A DNA stretch of 46,626 nt from the NCBI GenBank assembly GCA_003150405.1, contig QAMM01000013.1, positions 1 through 46,626 on the forward strand. Direction: 5' to 3'. Source of the stretch: Clostridiales bacterium (GTDB taxonomy: Bacteria > Bacillota > Clostridia > Oscillospirales > Ruminococcaceae). The position numbers and the translations under genes are program-made. Below the pieces are notes generated by a model. It worked only from the letters and a program-made list of their open reading frames with translations. It did not search any database and had not been told where the DNA came from. Positions within the stretch are counted from its first letter, which is position 1; each line of letters opens with the position of its first letter. Of this stretch, positions 25,319 through 46,215 are shown piece by piece.

Positions 25319-26359
25319 TTACTTGGAATCCAATGTCAACGCGGCTGCCTTTTCGTTTTCCGGCGTCACTTCCCGCCGGCGAACATAGAACAGCAATCCG
25401 ACAATAATGGGGAAGTAGAAGGTCAGCAGCCGCCACAGCAGAATTGCCATATTGAGCTGGTTTGCCGGGAAGAAAAGCTGAAAGAACATGAAAAAACTGA
25501 TTTCGGCGCCGCCAATCGCCCCCGGAAGCGGGATAAACGCTGTGATCATTGCCACAAAAATCTGGGCGGAAACCACGGTAAAAAAGTTTTCCTGCGTACC
25601 GCCGAAGGAAAGATAAATAAAGTAGGGAATGGCGCTGTAAACAACTACCTGCACAACAGAGAGCAAGACGTTGGCGGCAAACATCCGTTTGTTTTTCTTA
25701 ATCTGCTGAAAGCCGTTGTAAAATTCGTCAATTTCCTCCAACGCGCGCTCCAGTTTGTGATCAAGGTTTTTGAAAATCCGCAGTTTGCCGCAGAGCTTAA
25801 TGAACCCACAGACCATTTTGACGGTAAACTTTTTGAAAAATCCAATGCAGAACAATACCGCCAGCACTGCAAAGTTGATAATAAACCCAATAAACACCAA
25901 GTAAACAAAACCGCTGATTTCACTGGAAAACTCACCAAACTTAAAGATCAGTACAATCACGGAAGAGAGGGTGAGTCCCGTTTGGAATACGATGAACTTT
26001 AGCAGCAGCGAGCAGGTTGCAACACCAATGGGCACACCGCATTTTGCCATGTCGTACGCCTGAATGGGCTGTCCGCCGCTTGCAAACGGCGTAATGCAGT
26101 TAAATAGCTGGCCAATCATGCTGGTGCGCAGCGTCTGTTTGAATTTTTGAGGCGGATAATAGGACTTGGTAATGTTGTGCAGAATACCAGCTTCAAAAGT
26201 CCAGTAAACCATCATTGCCAGTACGCCGCAAAGTAGCCACCATTTGTTGGCCTGGGTGAGGATGGTCATAATGTTGTCAATACCGTCCACCAGTAAAACG
26301 TAGGCAAGCAACGCTACAATGGAAAGTGAAACAATAATGATGTTGATTTTTTTCTTCAC
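25319..26359 (-). CDS. YbhN/UPF0104-family membrane protein (LPG synthase TM-like), copy A
   Basis: About 346 residues with 7-8 transmembrane helices. The family fold is that of the membrane half of lysylphosphatidylglycerol synthase (flippase-like). Typical motifs are FEAGILHNIT, TPFASGGQPIQAYDMAKCGVP and the late FIPLPGAIGGAEISFF. Family members are thought to move lipids or lipid-linked molecules; the substrate here is unknown. I use the GTG at 26359, which has AAAGGGAG seven bases upstream. In the longer frame from 26389 that same site lies inside the coding region. A second copy lies at 40610. This copy lacks the leader RNA seen before the second. Confidence 0.85.
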   Translation of the reverse strand: MKKKINIIIVSLSIVALLAYVLLVDGIDNIMTILTQANKWWLLCGVLAMMVYWTFEAGILHNITKSYYPPQKFKQTLRTSMIGQLFNCITPFASGGQPIQAYDMAKCGVPIGVATCSLLLKFIVFQTGLTLSSVIVLIFKFGEFSSEISGFVYLVFIGFIINFAVLAVLFCIGFFKKFTVKMVCGFIKLCGKLRIFKNLDHKLERALEEIDEFYNGFQQIKKNKRMFAANVLLSVVQVVVYSAIPYFIYLSFGGTQENFFTVVSAQIFVAMITAFIPLPGAIGGAEISFFMFFQLFFPANQLNMAILLWRLLTFYFPIIVGLLFYVRRREVTPENEKAAALTLDSK

Positions 26360-26694
26360 TGATTTTGCTCCCTTTGTCGAAGAGATCAAGCTGGATGCGT
26401 TTCAAATAAAATTCCCACAGGCAAGCCTTTAAGCTCACCTTCATATGAAACGAAAGAACGATTTTATTCCGACGGCAGCCGACTGCCGTTTACAAACAAC
26501 TATTGTTTATTATAGCATATTATATGAAAAATTCATCATTTTTTTGTAATTTCATGATTCTGTACGAAAACCGCTCGGTTTGTCGCCAAGAAACCTCTAA
26601 CCTTAACAACCTTTGTAAGCGGGGAGCTTTCAGATATTTTTGATCTGGTTCAGCCGCAAATTCAATTTTTTGTAAAAAACACTCGAAAAATTAC
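26360..26694. other. Leader of YbhN-like copy A and region before the tRNAs
   Basis: No gene is seen. A small hairpin (ACGGCAG/CTGCCGT, 26472-26489) lies in the 5' region of the minus-strand gene. TATAAT on the minus strand at 26509-26514 could be its -10 box, without a good -35. The rest is A/T-rich. Confidence 0.35.
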
Positions 26695-36317: not shown

Positions 36318-37538
<1,221 letters not shown>

Positions 37539-40328: not shown

Positions 40329-40357
40329 TTGACTTGTCTTTGCAGGTTCTTTATACT
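40329..40357 (+). promoter_or_regulatory. Promoter of leader copy 1
   Basis: TTGACT, 17 bp, TATACT. The predicted start (about 40364) is four bases before the conserved hairpin. Confidence 0.9.
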
Positions 40358-40363
40358 AGGTCG

Positions 40364-40510
40364 TGCTGGAATAAGTGGTGGAGTCTGTCATAGAGAGCAA
40401 TAGCATCTCTATTTATTCTCAGTGGTTTACCTTTTTAAGTGGCCGCTTGACGGATGCGCTTTAATAAAAAGGGGCAGAACTTCTAGGGTGAAGTTCTGCC
40501 TTTTTCTTTT
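40364..40510 (+). ncRNA. Conserved structured leader RNA, copy 1 (riboswitch-like)
   Basis: P1 is GGAATAA/TTATTC (40368-40374, 40413-40418). The conserved unpaired GTGGTGGAGTCTGTC follows on the 5' side, then P2 ATAGAGA/TCTCTAT with a GC/GC extension. A 54-base linker contains P3, CCTTTTT/AAAAAGG (40430-40436, 40466-40472), which abuts the terminator arm GGCAGA at 40473. The conserved GTCTGTC (40383-40389) can pair with that arm and would prevent the terminator. Precedes YbhN-like copy B by 100 bases. Confidence 0.75.
40466..40510 (+). terminator. Terminator of leader copy 1
   Basis: GGCAGAACTTC (40473-40483) and GAAGTTCTGCC (40490-40500) form a perfect 11-bp stem, extended by A/T pairs, with the tail TTTTTCTTTT. 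Confidence 0.93.
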
Positions 40511-40609
40511 TGCGCAAAATTGAATCATTTATTTTCGACTCCACCTTTTCGTGCATTTTTGCGGTAAAACGGCACAACAGCGATAAAAATAAGGGTAAGG
40601 AGTCTCTGT

Positions 40610-41686
40610 ATGAAAAATCGAGCGTTTGAAATGATACGAAAAAACCTATTTGGCATTATTACAGCCGTTTTGTCGGCGGGTATTTTGCTGGCCTTTTTGT
40701 TTTCTTCTGACGGCATAAGTGCGTTGGTGCGCGTATCCCAGAACATGCAGTATTGGTGGTTTTTTTGTGCTGTGCTGGCCGCTGTTTTGGTCTGGCTGCT
40801 GGAAGGCGTTGTTTTGAATTTTTTTTGCCGTGCCGTTTATCATAAATGGCGGTTTCATTATTCCTTTTGCATCGGAATGGTGGGGCTCCTTTACAGCGCG
40901 CTTACCCCGTTTTCAACAGGCGGGCAGCCTATGCAAATTTATTCCATGCGCCGACTGGGGATGGAAACCGGAGCGGCTGGTTCCATTATCGCCGTTAAAA
41001 CACTGGTTTATCAAATTGTTTTGGTTGTTTATTCACTTATTATGGTCGTGTGGATGCTGCCGTTTTTTCAGACCAACATCAGCAACTTTTCTTTTTTAAC
41101 AGTCATAGGGCTGGTGTGCAACAGCACATTTATTTTTCTGGTTCTTCTTTTTTGCATCAGCAAACGGGGAACGGATAAAATTTTGCGGGTGTCAATCAGC
41201 CTGCTGCATAAAATTCATCTATGCAAACAGCCGGAAGAGCGTTATGAAAAAATCCATCAGGAACTGGAGGTATTCCATGAGAGCTCCTCGTTTTTGGGAA
41301 AATCCTGGAAACTGTACCTTGTCGCCTGTTTGCTGACGGTGCTTCAAATTGCCCTTACCTGTTCCATCCCATATTTTATTTACCGCAGTTTTGGTTTTTC
41401 AGAACAGCCAGTCAGCGTAATTGTTGCGGCGCAGGCTTATGTGTCAATGGTAAGTGCGTTTGTTCCGCTCCCAGGCGCCTCCGGCGGCGCGGAGGGCAGT
41501 TTTATTCTGTTTTTCCGTACCTTTTTTACGGATGGTACAATCGTCCCCGCTATGGTTGCCTGGCGTACCATTTCGTATTACCTGAATTTTCCGGTTGGCT
41601 GCATTTGCGCCTATGCGGCGGGGAAACTGCCAAAGCTCTCGTTAACAGCCTGCAAAGAGGAGGATATGTGTGAAAGGTCCGAATGA
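40610..41686 (+). CDS. YbhN/UPF0104-family membrane protein (LPG synthase TM-like), copy B
   Basis: A 358-residue paralog of the protein at 25319-26359, with 7-8 membrane helices. It shares TPFSTGGQPMQIYSMRRLGM in the middle and FVPLPGASGGAEGSFILFF near the end; both Gly-rich loops are typical of the family. The family is thought to move lipids or lipid-linked compounds; the substrate is unknown. AAGGAG is seven bases before the ATG. Transcription comes from the promoter at 40329, and the terminator in the leader must be passed to reach the gene, so its expression is probably controlled there. Confidence 0.85.
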   Translation: MKNRAFEMIRKNLFGIITAVLSAGILLAFLFSSDGISALVRVSQNMQYWWFFCAVLAAVLVWLLEGVVLNFFCRAVYHKWRFHYSFCIGMVGLLYSALTPFSTGGQPMQIYSMRRLGMETGAAGSIIAVKTLVYQIVLVVYSLIMVVWMLPFFQTNISNFSFLTVIGLVCNSTFIFLVLLFCISKRGTDKILRVSISLLHKIHLCKQPEERYEKIHQELEVFHESSSFLGKSWKLYLVACLLTVLQIALTCSIPYFIYRSFGFSEQPVSVIVAAQAYVSMVSAFVPLPGASGGAEGSFILFFRTFFTDGTIVPAMVAWRTISYYLNFPVGCICAYAAGKLPKLSLTACKEEDMCERSE

Positions 41687-41780
41687 GAAGTGTACTGCCG
41701 ATAGGAGCCGGTCAGTAAATCGGGTGACATGAAAGCTCGACACCTGTGCAAAGAATTTTGCAGCCAAGCCAAAAAGATGA

Positions 41781-41809
41781 TTGACAATTACCGAAATACG
41801 CTTTATACT
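41781..41809 (+). promoter_or_regulatory. Promoter of leader copy 2
   Basis: TTGACA, 17 bp, TATACT. Predicted start about 41816, one base before the conserved hairpin. Confidence 0.9.
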
Positions 41810-41815
41810 TAGTCA

Positions 41816-41952
41816 TGGAATAAGTGGTGGAGTCTGTCATAGGGAGAGTTATTCTCTCTATTTATTCCAAAAATTTGCTAGAATGAAAAGCTTTTCAAAC
41901 AATAGCACATTTTTTAAGCAAGGGCAGACCTTTTATGGGTTTGTCCTTTTTT
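41816..41952 (+). ncRNA. Conserved structured leader RNA, copy 2 (riboswitch-like)
   Basis: P1 is TGGAATAA/TTATTCCA (41816-41823, 41862-41869). The invariant 5'-side loop follows, then P2 ATAGGGAGA/TCTCTCTAT with its own loop. The linker is 55 bases, and P3 is TTGCT/AGCAA (41875-41879, 41917-41921). GTCTGTC (41832-41838) can pair over seven bases with the terminator arm GGCAGAC (41923-41929). No gene follows closely; the CNNM/CorC gene begins about 670 bases later. Confidence 0.75.
41920..41952 (+). terminator. Terminator of leader copy 2
   Basis: GGGCAGACC and GGTTTGTCC pair with two G-U wobbles around a T-rich loop, then T6. Confidence 0.8.
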
Positions 41953-42360
41953 GTTTGAATCTGCAAAAAATGTCGGCAAGTGGAATCTGGCTTTCCGCTG
42001 TTTCAAATATTTTGAAAGGATTGGTGCTTTGCCGTGGAACGTTGATATTTTCTGCGCTTTACCGTGCCTTACAGCCGATCTGGCGCTTTGGCGGTGCTGA
42101 AAATAAATGGCGCGGCAATTAAGAAGCGTCTGTTTTTATCCAATGAACAGGTGCACAAAGCTCTGGCAAAATTATATTGGGTGCTTATCCGTTTCGCAAG
42201 TCTAGCGGCCGAGTGGTTTTCAACGCCGACTGCATGGCAAACCGTTTTGTGTCTGTTGCTGCTGGAAATTGGCCTTTGGGGTTACTTCTCCAAATGCTCG
42301 GATGGCGGAGAGGGGTACATAAATTCCCCGTACGTCGTGAGACGGATGTCCTTCCATGTA

Positions 42361-42510
42361 GATGCAATATAAGGTAAAAAAGCCCCTTGGCGCAGCAGTA
42401 AACGACCTCGGTTAAATTTTGCGACGCAAAGGGGAGGTGCACCGGCGCTGAATTGGCGGCTTTTACGGTATTGCATCAGGATTTGTTTTTGACTGCATTA
42501 CAAAATCCTG
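42361..42510 (+). ncRNA. Candidate structured RNA before the CNNM/CorC gene
   Basis: GATGCAATA (42361-42369) and TATTGCATC (42469-42477) are exact 9-base complements that close a domain of about 117 bases. Inside, CCCCTT-GCG (42383-42392) pairs with CGC-AAGGGG (42425-42434). A second hairpin, CAGGATTTGT with ACAAAATCCTG (42477-42510), follows at once. It lies about 110 bases before the gene. I could not match it by eye to the M-box, yybP-ykoY or ydaO consensus. A small mobile element with inverted ends is an alternative. Confidence 0.4.
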
Positions 42511-42620
42511 CAGAAACAAGTAATCCCCAATCCTTTGAATTGCGGCAGCTTTGTTGCTTTTAAATTGAATCACTTTAACGATCATCAAAATTTTTTCAGT
42601 AAAGAAGGAGAGAAATCTTT

Positions 42621-43985
42621 GTGGACGGCTTACCCGCTCAAATAATACTTCAGGTCATTTTTATTTTACTCAATGCTTTTTTTGCCGGTTCAGAAATTGC
42701 GTTTTTGTCACTCAATCAGGTAAAGTTAAACAAAAAGGCAGAGGACGGTGATAAAACCGCTGCCCGGCTGCTGGTGTTTGTAGAAAATCCAAACCGCTTT
42801 TTATCCGCTATTCAGGTTGCCATTACGCTGTCTGGCTTTTTGGGAGCGGCCTTTGGCGCCGAAAGTTTCTCCGGGTATTTGACCGATGCTTTTGTCAGCA
42901 TAGGTATTCCGCTTCCAGAAGGAACATTAAGCGTTATTTCAATGGTGCTCATTACCATTATCATATCCTTTTTCTCTATTGCGTTCGGTGAAATGGTGCC
43001 GAAACGAATTGCTATGCAGCGTCCTGACGGGTGGGCCAAAGCTGCGCTGGGAATTATGAAGGTTATCAGCTTTGTCTTTGCGCCTATGATGGCCCTGTTA
43101 AATGTGACAACCAATGGTTCCCTGCGTTTGTTGGGGATGAAAACCCAAGCGGAGGACGGCGTTGCCACGGAAGAAGATATCCGCCTGATGGTGGAAAACA
43201 GCGGCGAACAGGGTGCGATTGCTCAGGAAGAGCAGGAATGGATTGAAAATGTATTTGATTTCGGCGATATCATTGCAAGTGACGTTATGACGCCGGAACC
43301 AGATGTGACAGCCTTTAGTCTGAACGAGAAAGCAGAGGATATTTTAGCGGCGGTTCGTACAACTGGGCTGAGCCGTTATCCAGTTTACAATGAGGATATC
43401 AATGACGTCTGTGGTATTTTAAATGCACGGGATTTTCTTTTAAACCTTCAGTCCGGTCATCCCAAGCCTTTGAAAGAGCTTTTGCGCCCCGCATATTTTG
43501 TTCCGGAAAGTGTTCACGCCGACCAGTTGTTTAAAGATATGCAGTCGCAAAAGCGCCATCTTGCCGTTGTTGTGGACGAATACGGCGGAACCGCAGGCGT
43601 TGTAACGATGGAGGACCTTTTGGAAGAAATTGTCGGGAATATTTACGATGAATTTGATCCGGAAGAGCCTCAGCCCATCGTCAAGCTCAAGGAAGGCATT
43701 TGGCGTGCACAGGGAAGCCTTCGTGTAGAAGAACTGGCCGATGTTGTTGACGTCGATATTCCGGAGGACGCAGATTATGATACGCTTGGTGGCATGGTCA
43801 TGAGCTGCCTGAGCGAAATTCCAGCGGATGGTTCCAAGTTGACGGTAGCGATAAACGGCTTAAAAATTATGGTCGAAGAAATTGAAGACCGCAAGGTGGT
43901 CTGGGCTTTAGTGGAAAAGCTGCCGTCAGAGGTTTCCAATGAAAAACAGGATGAAAAAATCCCTGTGGAAGCGGCTAAATCGTAA
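42621..43985 (+). CDS. CNNM/CorC-type membrane protein (DUF21-CBS-CorC_HlyC)
   Basis: A 454-residue protein. The N-terminal DUF21/CNNM domain (about 5-185) has four membrane segments and motifs AFFAGSEIAFLSLN and AFGEMVPKRIAMQ. Two CBS domains (about 205-330) contain VMTPEPDVTAF and YGGTAGVVTMEDLLEEIVG. The C-terminal CorC_HlyC domain (about 345-430) carries WRAQGSLRVEELADVVDVDI. Family members are Mg2+ (or other divalent cation) efflux proteins whose CBS pair senses ATP-Mg; many are annotated as hemolysins without evidence. Start: GTG with AGGAGAG ten bases upstream. It is convergent with the DUF47-PiT operon. Confidence 0.9.
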   Translation: MDGLPAQIILQVIFILLNAFFAGSEIAFLSLNQVKLNKKAEDGDKTAARLLVFVENPNRFLSAIQVAITLSGFLGAAFGAESFSGYLTDAFVSIGIPLPEGTLSVISMVLITIIISFFSIAFGEMVPKRIAMQRPDGWAKAALGIMKVISFVFAPMMALLNVTTNGSLRLLGMKTQAEDGVATEEDIRLMVENSGEQGAIAQEEQEWIENVFDFGDIIASDVMTPEPDVTAFSLNEKAEDILAAVRTTGLSRYPVYNEDINDVCGILNARDFLLNLQSGHPKPLKELLRPAYFVPESVHADQLFKDMQSQKRHLAVVVDEYGGTAGVVTMEDLLEEIVGNIYDEFDPEEPQPIVKLKEGIWRAQGSLRVEELADVVDVDIPEDADYDTLGGMVMSCLSEIPADGSKLTVAINGLKIMVEEIEDRKVVWALVEKLPSEVSNEKQDEKIPVEAAKS

Positions 43986-44040
43986 AACGATTTATTCGGT
44001 AAATTGGTCGGAGAACCATTTTTCATCAATCAATATAATG

Positions 44041-44079
44041 CGGGCAGATACGGTTAAACTGTATCTGCCCGCTTTTTTA
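44041..44079 (+). terminator. Terminator of the CNNM/CorC gene
   Basis: GCGGGCAGATAC and GTATCTGCCCGC form a perfect 12-bp stem followed by T6. Confidence 0.95.
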
Positions 44080-44198
44080 TGAGCATGTATAATTTTTTAC
44101 GATACATATTGAAAAATGATAACAATTTACCGGAATTCGCCGAGACACCATTTACGTTTTGCGGCTGGTTCCTCAAGAGTAACATAACAACCGTTCGC

Positions 44199-44822
44199 CT
44201 AAGAATTTTTCATGATCACGCCTTCTACAACGTCGGCGACATGTTCACAGGCATCTGCACATTTTTCCAAATAAATGTAAATCTCCCGCAGCGCAATGAC
44301 CTCAAAAGGATCTATTTTCTGTTTGTGAAGTTGATACATATTGGAAATAAAAATCTGGTCGGCGTCTTCCTCCAGCGTATTAATGGTCACGATGTGGTCG
44401 TGGAGTTTTTTGGAGTGCTTAAAGTCGGCAAACTCAACCATCATGTCACGAACTGCCTGGCAGCAACGGCAGACAATTTTTCCCAAATCCAATGCTTCTG
44501 TCGGAATGGCCTGAATGTGGTTGTAGTAGATTCGGATGAGCACATCTTCAATTTTATCGGTCACTTCGTCAATGTTTTGGCTGAGCAACATAATGTCCTC
44601 CCGCTCAATTGGCGTCATAAACGCTTTGGCCAGGGTGTTGAGCAAAAGGTGCTTCTTTTGGTCGCCCGCATGTTCCACTGCATGAATTTCCTCCAATTTT
44701 TTGGGGATTTCCTGAATATCAAATTGTTCCATCGTTTGTTCCAATAGCTGGGCTGCCTGGCAGGAATAATCTGCACAGTCAATAAACGCTTTAAAATAAA
44801 AGGCGTCCTGTTTTCGTGACAT
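44199..44822 (-). CDS. DUF47/PhoU-like protein, partner of the PiT transporter
   Basis: A 207-residue all-helical protein of the DUF47 (PhoU-related, YkaA) family. Repeated acidic motifs (LEEIHAVEHAGDQKK, EREDIMLLSQNIDEVTDKIEDVL, NTLEEDADQIF) are the PhoU-type metal-binding helices. DUF47 proteins are usually encoded beside PiT transporters and thought to regulate them. I start at the ATG at 44822, which has AAGGAG eight bases upstream; a longer frame from 44894 has none. It is the second gene of the PiT operon, 113 bases after it. Confidence 0.9.
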   Translation of the reverse strand: MSRKQDAFYFKAFIDCADYSCQAAQLLEQTMEQFDIQEIPKKLEEIHAVEHAGDQKKHLLLNTLAKAFMTPIEREDIMLLSQNIDEVTDKIEDVLIRIYYNHIQAIPTEALDLGKIVCRCCQAVRDMMVEFADFKHSKKLHDHIVTINTLEEDADQIFISNMYQLHKQKIDPFEVIALREIYIYLEKCADACEHVADVVEGVIMKNS

Positions 44823-44935
44823 TGTTTTTTCTCCTTCCACCCGAACGATGTTCGGTTGTTTGATTTGGTTTACGGGCTGTTTCAACAGACCCACTTGAAT
44901 GTATCATATTTGGCCATAAAACCGGCCGGAGCCTG

Positions 44936-45991
44936 TTATCCAAAAATGGCCATAAACAGCTTGGCCATCACAAAGCTAATCAACCCGCAGCCGGGAAAGG
45001 TGAAAATCCAGGTCAACACCATATCCTTTACCACACTGAAGTTAATAGCAGAGAGGCGTTTGACTGCACCAACACCCATAATAGCCGTTGTCTTGGTATG
45101 GGTTGTGGAAACCGGAATTCCCAACAGGCTGGAGTAGAGCAGACAAAACGCGGCGGCGAGATCGGCGGAAAAACCTTGGTACTTCTCCAGTTTGACCATA
45201 TCCATGCCAACGGATTTAATAATTTTTTCGCCGCCGACGCTGGTGCCGGTGCCCATGACAACGCTGCACAGCAGCATCAGCCAAATGGGAATGGATATAC
45301 CGCTGACGCTTTCCTGTCCGTTGGAGAAAGCAATTCCCAAAAACAGCACCCCAATAAATTTTTGGCCGTCCTGGGCGCCGTGCATAAAGCTCATGGCTGC
45401 CGCTCCAAAAATTTGAGCGCCCTTGAAAAAACGGTTGGTTTTCCGGCGATCCAGGTTCCGGCAGATCACCGTGACAATTTTACAGACAACCCACCCGGTG
45501 ACAAATCCAAGAATCAGGCTGAGCGCCAGGCCGTACAGGACCTTAACCCACTCATCCATGTTAATGCCCCCCACTCCGCTGTGGATGGCGATAGCCGCGC
45601 CGGAAAGCCCTGCGATCAGGCTGTGGCTTTCGCTGGTTGGGATGCCGAACAGCGAGGCGCCAACGCTGTACACAACAATGGAAAACAGCGCTGCACAGAG
45701 CGCAATCAGCGCTGCTCGGGTATCCCCGCCAAAATCCACCATATTGCTGATGGTGGACGCAACAGAACTGTTGATCTGTGTCATGACAAAAACGCCCAAA
45801 AAATTAAACGCGGCACTCATCCAAATGGCACTGCGCACCCCCATACAGCGGGTGGCAATGCAGGTGGCAATCGCGTTTGGTGCGTCGGTCCATCCGTTGA
45901 CAAAAATAACGCCTAACGTCAGCACAACTGTAACAAGCAAGACCGGATTTGAGAAAATGTTTTGAACAAAGGTAAAAAACGATAAATCCAT
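44936..45991 (-). CDS. pit: Inorganic phosphate transporter, PiT family
   Basis: A 351-residue protein with about 9-10 membrane helices. The PHO4 signature appears near the N-terminus (GVIFVNGWTDAPNAIATCIATR) and again in FMHGAQDGQKFIGV of the second half. PiT proteins import phosphate, often as a neutral metal-phosphate complex, with H+ or Na+. I start at the ATG at 45991 with AAAGGG about nine bases upstream; the longer frame runs back through the leader RNA and is not coding. Leader copy 3 with a terminator precedes the gene, so expression is probably controlled by attenuation. DUF47 follows. Confidence 0.92.
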   Translation of the reverse strand: MDLSFFTFVQNIFSNPVLLVTVVLTLGVIFVNGWTDAPNAIATCIATRCMGVRSAIWMSAAFNFLGVFVMTQINSSVASTISNMVDFGGDTRAALIALCAALFSIVVYSVGASLFGIPTSESHSLIAGLSGAAIAIHSGVGGINMDEWVKVLYGLALSLILGFVTGWVVCKIVTVICRNLDRRKTNRFFKGAQIFGAAAMSFMHGAQDGQKFIGVLFLGIAFSNGQESVSGISIPIWLMLLCSVVMGTGTSVGGEKIIKSVGMDMVKLEKYQGFSADLAAAFCLLYSSLLGIPVSTTHTKTTAIMGVGAVKRLSAINFSVVKDMVLTWIFTFPGCGLISFVMAKLFMAIFG

Positions 45992-46035
45992 GAAAATGTT
46001 CCCTTTCTCTCCTTTTCGGCGGCATTGGATGGCAA

Positions 46036-46071
46036 AAGAAAAAGGCAGCGCTTCATATGGAAGCCCTGCCC
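46036..46071 (-). terminator. Terminator of leader copy 3
   Basis: On the minus strand GGCAGGGCTTC and GAAGCGCTGCC pair with one mismatch, followed by TTTTTCTTTT. It lies 45 bases before the pit start. Confidence 0.9.
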
Positions 46072-46180
46072 ATGATTTCCTGAAACAATACAAATGTTTC
46101 CCTTGTTCCAATCGATCACACTGCGAATAAATAGAGACGCATAAGCGCTCTATGACAGACTCCACCACTTATTCCAGCCA
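46071..46180 (-). ncRNA. Conserved structured leader RNA, copy 3 (riboswitch-like), before pit
   Basis: Read on the minus strand: P1 GGAATAA/TTATTC (46175-46169, 46130-46125), with flanking CTG/CAG. The invariant loop follows, then P2 ATAGAG-CGC/GCG-CTCTAT, where the distal pairs differ from the other copies but still pair. The linker is 54 bases, with P3 GTGAT/ATCAT (46119-46115, 46076-46072). GTCTGTC (46160-46154) can pair with the terminator arm GGCAGG (46070-46065). Confidence 0.75.
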
Positions 46181-46186
46181 AAATTC

Positions 46187-46215
46187 AGTATAGCCGTTTC
46201 AGAAATGCCTGTCAA
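46187..46215 (-). promoter_or_regulatory. Promoter of leader copy 3 and the pit operon
   Basis: On the minus strand TTGACA (46215-46210), 17 bp, TATACT (46192-46187). Predicted start about 46180, a few bases before the hairpin. Confidence 0.9.

Follow-up and report, generated by a model that had tools for sequence, protein, structure and literature searches.

The 46.6-kb stretch of Clostridiales DNA analysed here (contig QAMM01000013.1, called the window throughout) carries three copies of one RNA element, each between an upstream promoter and a downstream terminator. The element is a real and widespread leader RNA, structured and not represented in Rfam. It is very probably a cis-acting transcription attenuator, and it is probably also a riboswitch, ligand binding being predicted. 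That it forms a new candidate class of riboswitches for alkali cations has, in our view, an even chance. The three copies had been singled out as a candidate riboswitch or attenuator class in a first-pass annotation, made by a model from the sequence alone.

The bulged hairpin and its terminator

The element is a single bulged hairpin made up of a stem P1 (at most 11 pairs, in most cases with AUAA/UUAU at the end), a one-sided 15-base bulge on the 5' side (mostly GUGGUGGAGUCUGUC) and a hairpin P2 of 17-128 bases, loop included, whose loop is variable. Covariation was assessed in an alignment of 101 rows (98 relatives and the three window copies) taken from 109 unique sequences with P2 below 40 bases; L022, L031, L040, L044, L073, L079, L098 and L104 were omitted, and five sequences with a longer parsed P2, among them L082 with its P2 length misparsed, lay outside the set. 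Across P1 and P2, 334 cells were changed on both sides versus 130.1 in shuffles, and 84.5% of cells were paired versus at most 48.2% after sliding by 1-3 columns. A second set of 27 rows, which had been selected by the covariance model itself (27 of 32 model-only matches, omitting L139, L142, L154, L184 and L187), gave 103 double-changed cells versus 38.1 in shuffles. Both stems thus covary strongly, as expected if the pairing reported in the first-pass annotation is real, and this identifies a structured RNA. In L027, L034, L047 and L086, P2 is swollen to 64-128 bases by extra loop sequence with the core and the terminator logic kept, which suggests that P2 length is free.

In the window, the elements were placed by sequence, alignment and covariance model at 40358..40429 on the forward strand (copy 1; P1 formed by 40364-40374 with 40413-40423, bulge 40375-40389, P2 hairpin 40390-40412), 41807..41878 on the forward strand (copy 2; bulge 41824-41838, P2 hairpin 41839-41861) and 46114..46185 on the reverse strand (copy 3; bulge 46154-46168, P2 hairpin 46131-46153). 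Their promoters were read directly in the sequence, just as the annotation had given them: TTGACT for copy 1 (40329..40357, +) and TTGACA for copies 2 (41781..41809, +) and 3 (46187..46215, -), each followed by N17 and TATACT. Sequence and alignment likewise bear out the claim that a 27-base block, TGGAATAAG...TGTCATAG, and a 13-base block, TCTCTATTTATTC, show no difference among the three copies. Terminator hairpins, located from sequence and pairing analysis, follow at 40468..40505 (+), with a 5' arm complementary to the bulge, 41920..41948 (+) and 46043..46071 (-). The covariance model matches exactly these three sites in the 46.6 kb (E 1.9e-13, 1.1e-12 and 1.4e-12), although the copies belong to its own 101 training rows, and the 15-base bulge, with up to three mismatches allowed, has four window matches (three of them exact) versus 0.61 expected.

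Homologues exist in other genomes, as the annotation's reading demanded. An exact 18-base core, comprising the bulge and three P1 bases with zero P2 bases, was found in 116 stretches of one-genome-per-species contigs, in records named Clostridia, Oscillospiraceae/Ruminococcaceae, Lachnospiraceae, Gemmiger, Blautia, Massilimicrobiota, Erysipelatoclostridium, Faecalitalea and the like; viral contigs gave no exact core match, and a viral origin is not supported. The covariance model, built from the 98 relatives and the three window copies, found further members: in 14/200 and 15/200 genomes of two draws, apparently from one family, and in 15/43, 10/63, 11/150 and 1/200 genomes of four further family draws. 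A class-wide draw gave matches in 4/291 genomes, reduced to 3/291 when L142 was dropped as false for lack of the bulge, and a phylum-wide draw gave 5/295, reduced to 4/295 when the weak match L187 was dropped as doubtful. The 16 genomes searched whole hold 1-3 copies each, and such sporadic occurrence, like the 1/200 in one family, suits a self-contained sensor. Removal of four elements identical up to 60 bases past the element left 145 of 149 for the analyses below. In one genome two elements (L136 and L078) stand back to back about 150 bases apart, one leading to TrkH and the other to no clear gene.

No known Rfam class matches the element, and the annotation's claim of novelty therefore stands with permissive thresholds included. 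At gathering thresholds the window contains only two tRNAs, and with E up to 5 the element region is without a match near any cut-off. Over copy 2 the L20 leader scored 19.4 bits, at the copy 3 terminator ctRNA_p42d scored 19.9 bits, and mir-3926 matched a hairpin at 44.04 kb; all were rejected as far below cut-off. A search of 20 diverse relatives at E up to 0.1 gave no match at the element, the RF03071 sodium model reached its cut-off in 0 of 61 element-bearing genomes, and the known c-di-AMP (ydaO/yuaA), Mg2+ and Mn2+ classes did not match. Open-licence PMC papers, supplements excluded, contained neither the core string, nor a K+ riboswitch, nor a candidate RNA linked to the element's gene set (for the last, including the available text of PMC11109978 and PMC8632094); an unnamed motif could be present in a supplement or a closed paper.

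The surroundings of the hairpin are those of an attenuator. In 131/144 elements, versus 9/435 control windows, the end of a sigma-70-like promoter is no more than a few bases away from the aligned element, which puts the predicted transcript start close to the first P1 pair. Downstream, 138/145 elements have a terminator-like hairpin of -8 kcal/mol or stabler with a U tract, compared with 92/435 random windows of the same loci and 35/145 shuffled downstream stretches. In all three window copies GTCTGTC is complementary (G-U allowed) to the terminator arm, and the antiterminator pairing proposed on this ground in the first-pass annotation extends beyond chance to the relatives. Pairing between the bulge and the terminator 5' arm averages -12.1 kcal/mol over 138 distinct arms, versus -8.1 when the arms and -8.2 when the bulges are shuffled, with no replicate mean beyond -8.7. 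Because this complementarity is well beyond chance, the bulge can act as an antiterminator.

The commonest helix joins UCUGUC of the bulge with GACAGA or GGCAGR, often extended by GGA(G) with UCC or CUUC. The best contiguous helix uses the 3' part of the bulge in 91 of 143 elements and the middle or 5' part in 49 (for example L037, where GUGGAGUC is paired with GGCUUCAC); in 3 it has under five pairs. In L008, L011 and L039 the GAC of GACAGA falls outside the terminator stem, which suggests selection for bulge pairing itself, and L166 has a single compensatory change, in which U becomes G at bulge base 14 and A becomes C in the arm. The riboswitch features found are therefore a conserved 5'-leader RNA structure with covariation and, by prediction, an expression platform able to switch between two folds.

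Two further features of the annotation proved local. In the window TTATTC and the GGCAGR arm are indeed 54, 55 and 54 bases apart, but a fixed linker is not general, the gap between element and terminator in relatives having a median of 38.5 and a 5-95% range of 9.7-96 (138 elements). Nor is the linker helix (the annotation's P3), since some relatives have only 0-11 bases there.

Ion-transport genes behind the element

Gene types were assigned from protein clusters, with Pfam run on one representative per type, and the target was taken as the longest same-strand open reading frame starting at most 700 bases downstream; this may or may not be the first gene. Of the 145 elements, 127 are followed by the gene of an ion pump or transporter. 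The individual counts, slightly inflated because near-duplicates (L054/L184; L028/L072/L098; L018/L099; L030/L044) remain among the 145, are 33 for membrane pyrophosphatase, 28 for the NhaD/ArsB-superfamily carrier, 24 for TrkH, 20 for PiT (19 and L111), 14 for DUF1538 (UmpAB-like; 13 and L114), five for type II P-type ATPase, four for pyruvate kinase and three for YbhN-like proteins; L111 and L114 were reassigned from reading frames and confirmed by BLAST. A Na+/Ca2+ exchanger, a Na+/Pi cotransporter, a Na+-transporting decarboxylase beta subunit and an ABC exporter each occur once, and the other ten comprise a flavoprotein oxidoreductase (L040) and nine elements without an assigned gene. The gene lies about 600-650 bases from the element in L018 and L099 (TrkH) and in L028, L072 and L098 (PiT). 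Between element and PiT, an IS200-type transposase gene is present in L028 (by Pfam) and in L072 and L098 (by clustering).

For the signal, the first-pass annotation had pointed to phosphate, a divalent cation or a metal-phosphate complex. That guess, based on a few window genes, is not supported: PiT accounts for only 20 of the 145 elements and CorC appears only as an uncertain case in the window, and the wider gene set suggests alkali-cation homeostasis instead.

Comparison with NCBIfam models gave mixed labels. The L006 pyrophosphatase scores above the cut-off of one 'sodium-translocating pyrophosphatase' model and L082 above that of the calcium/sodium antiporter model, DUF1538 matches UmpA/UmpB below cut-offs, and the P-type ATPase comes near the Ca2+ and Na,K models, passing neither; its best solved relatives are Na,K-ATPases, almost level with Ca2+-ATPases. 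A close relative of the L011 carrier is labelled 'Na+/H+ antiporter NhaD/arsenite permease-like' by one source and 'arsenic transporter' by others. A K+-independent pyruvate kinase isoform is not supported, DTKGPE being present in all four enzymes (judged by a Glu/Lys criterion).

The pyrophosphatases behind the element carry GADLFDSN in 30/30 cases holding the motif and GNTVKA, with the Lys of K+-independent enzymes, in 21/21 with a pattern match. Element-free members of the class have DL(F/Y)ESY and GNTTAA; these are the 30 of highest Pfam score, lower-scoring ones lying outside the comparison, and the contrast may be overstated because the top-score choice favours the K+-dependent group. 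According to the available text of PMC9408878, Lys at this position marks K+-independent enzymes, and those K+-independent pyrophosphatases that have been characterised pump H+ rather than Na+ (PMC9408878, PMC10897367, as far as their available text goes), so the NCBIfam 'sodium' label is not to be trusted for the element-linked enzymes. A K+-independent pyrophosphatase would be useful under scarce K+ or high Na+. All 30 readable element-linked pyrophosphatases (for example L006:1046-3145, L003, L042 and L068) have Asp where the 30 element-free enzymes have the ion-gate Glu, in combination with the Lys noted above, and they are possibly a distinct pyrophosphatase subtype. No known riboswitch was detected before element-free relatives of the pyrophosphatase (20 of 30 loci checked) or of DUF1538 (20 of 30 loci checked, two tRNAs only), where one could have hinted at the ligand, and the element itself was present at 0/60 element-free pyrophosphatase and DUF1538 loci.

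Polarity, ligand and alternatives

In the mechanism that we propose, a free bulge would capture the terminator 5' arm and polymerase would read through, and a ligand holding the bulge in its own fold would let the terminator form (OFF). Up to ten of the 15 bulge bases lie in the predicted antiterminator helix, so that the recognition fold and the antiterminator would be mutually exclusive and ligand occupancy would favour termination. The bulge is also far more constant than the arms, and something beyond this pairing seems to keep it so. On these grounds we lean modestly towards OFF rather than ON.

Alkali-cation status appears to be the theme that leaves the fewest genes unexplained, with K+ and Na+ about equally likely as the ligand. 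Under OFF polarity K+ would fit best: K+ shortage would let the bulge seize the terminator 5' arm, releasing K+ uptake (TrkH), the K+-independent-type pyrophosphatase, pyruvate kinase and cation antiporters. Under ON polarity Na+ would fit best. That the element is the first K+ riboswitch class, with K+ bound in the 15-base bulge of a minimal hairpin, is on present evidence unlikely. Genetic sensors known for alkali cations are few; beside the Na+-I riboswitch, its authors name one validated protein factor, NhaR, in the available text (PMC9337991). If an alkali cation is the ligand, the element would offer a direct, cheap assay of Na+ or K+ sensing in anaerobic gut bacteria and a very small RNA (about 50-60 bases) for the study of ion-selective pockets, and would tie a K+-independent-type membrane pyrophosphatase to an alkali-cation response. 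With another ligand, too, a widespread ion-transport attenuator that Rfam lacks is an obvious candidate for testing.

Several observations weigh against parts of this reading. Minimum-energy folds of the single window copies are stabler than shuffles (z -4.3, -4.9 and -3.2) and include the terminator hairpin in 3/3, but the P1-bulge-P2 fold was not returned for any of them, the bulge of copy 1 being paired with the linker instead; because of this, the hairpin model rests on comparison and not on single-sequence energy. The number of pairs with double changes (15/19 versus 13.6 in shuffles, 101 rows) is weak by itself. Constancy of the bulge, with at most two exceptions at base 1 and at each of bases 3-15 and only base 2 varying among 145 elements, is partly built in, 116 members having been found by exact bulge match; the 29 elements from later model searches give the less biased figure, again at most two exceptions outside base 2. 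Element by element, just 61/138 fall in the best 5% of arm shuffles and 66/138 in the best 5% of bulge shuffles, and of the three variants with a changed bulge base at a pairing position, two (L167 and L169) lack compensation. Terminators are mostly stabler than the bulge:arm helix, which suits a ligand-stabilised antiterminator (ON), not OFF. The largest gene group, the pyrophosphatase, is by the published sequence rule no Na+ exporter, and PiT, YbhN and the single ABC exporter fit the alkali-cation theme poorly.

A riboswitch of the same build for another signal is a possible, if rather unlikely, alternative, the signals in question being c-di-AMP (a K+-sufficiency signal), pyrophosphate or phosphate, Mg2+ or Ca2+, and protons. 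Pyrophosphatase, PiT and the one Na+/Pi carrier handle phosphate compounds, but a phosphate signal leaves TrkH, the NhaD-like carriers and DUF1538 unexplained. The Na+/Ca2+ antiporter, the type II P-type ATPase close to Ca2+ pumps and possibly CorC would suit a divalent ion, which again fails to account for TrkH and DUF1538, and H+-coupled carriers together with an H+-pump type of pyrophosphatase would suit pH. The c-di-AMP riboswitch (ydaO/yuaA) resembles the element in that aptamer core bases can pair with the left arm of the terminator, with predicted OFF control (available text of PMC9337991); its family covariance model, however, gives no match to the element, and neither do the Mg2+ and Mn2+ classes of Rfam.

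Small hairpins with an invariant one-sided bulge are a typical target of RNA-binding antiterminator proteins, and direct ligand binding by the element is a prediction. An attenuator in which such a protein, bound to the bulge and P2, decides between antiterminator and terminator is nevertheless quite unlikely: the sporadic carriers, Clostridia and Erysipelotrichia-type bacteria with mostly single copies and scarce in some families, would each need the same protein, and the downstream clusters, to which this search was confined (upstream genes and whole genomes lay outside it), contain no constant regulator neighbour.

Among known classes, the Na+-I riboswitch (DUF1646 motif, RF03071) is similar in being a leader RNA with a terminator before ion-transport genes. 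The genes associated with it are nhaD, oadG and those of P-type ATPase (mgtA) (PMC9337991, PMC9646797, available text), so that nhaD, oxaloacetate decarboxylase and P-type ATPase are gene types common to both, and this overlap is what would argue for a drifted member of the Na+-I or Li+ classes. Such membership is extremely improbable, being refuted by the model searches described above (the copies at E up to 5, the 20 relatives at E up to 0.1, and RF03071 in 0/61 genomes). In build, Na+-I has two extended stems, its conserved bases lying at the base of P1 and in the loop of P2 (available text of PMC9337991), whereas the element has one hairpin, with a bulge of 15 bases on one side only and a P2 loop that varies. 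Na+-I is known to be ON, and TrkH and pyrophosphatase are unmentioned in the available text of the Na+-I paper. The Li+ riboswitches (nhaA-I and nhaA-II) and the Na+-II variants are likewise alkali-cation leader RNAs before cation transporters (PMC9646797, available text), but the element has no Rfam match. Similarly, the orphan candidate nqrA-II motif is a leader RNA for which Na+ or a related ligand has been proposed as the signal, but it consists of four stem-loops before one gene in Pasteurellaceae (PMC11109978, available text).

Genes near the three window copies

The predicted target of copy 1 is a YbhN-like membrane protein (LPG_synthase_TM by Pfam; 40610..41686, +), and a gene 78.6% identical to it stands behind the element of L033 too. 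A second YbhN-like gene in the window (25319-26389, -), about 34% identical to the copy 1 target, is without an element. Copy 3 is predicted to control a PiT-type phosphate carrier (PHO4 by Pfam; 44936..45991, -), a gene type shared with other elements as counted above, and the second gene behind it encodes a DUF47/PhoU-like protein (Pfam; 44199..44822, -).

Copy 2 has no clear target gene. A CNNM/CorC-type protein (Pfam; 42621..43985, +) is an uncertain, possible target, its start lying about 670 bases past the copy 2 terminator. The interval between them (41949-42620) holds only a 102-aa open reading frame without a Pfam match; no remnant of a typical target gene was detected there at E < 0.02 except this frame itself, and no plasmid DNA resembling the region was found. 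The target gene of copy 2 may have been lost. Elsewhere in the window, a collagen-like (GXY-repeat) protein of 385 aa is encoded at 36381-37538, flanked by two MATE-type transporter genes.

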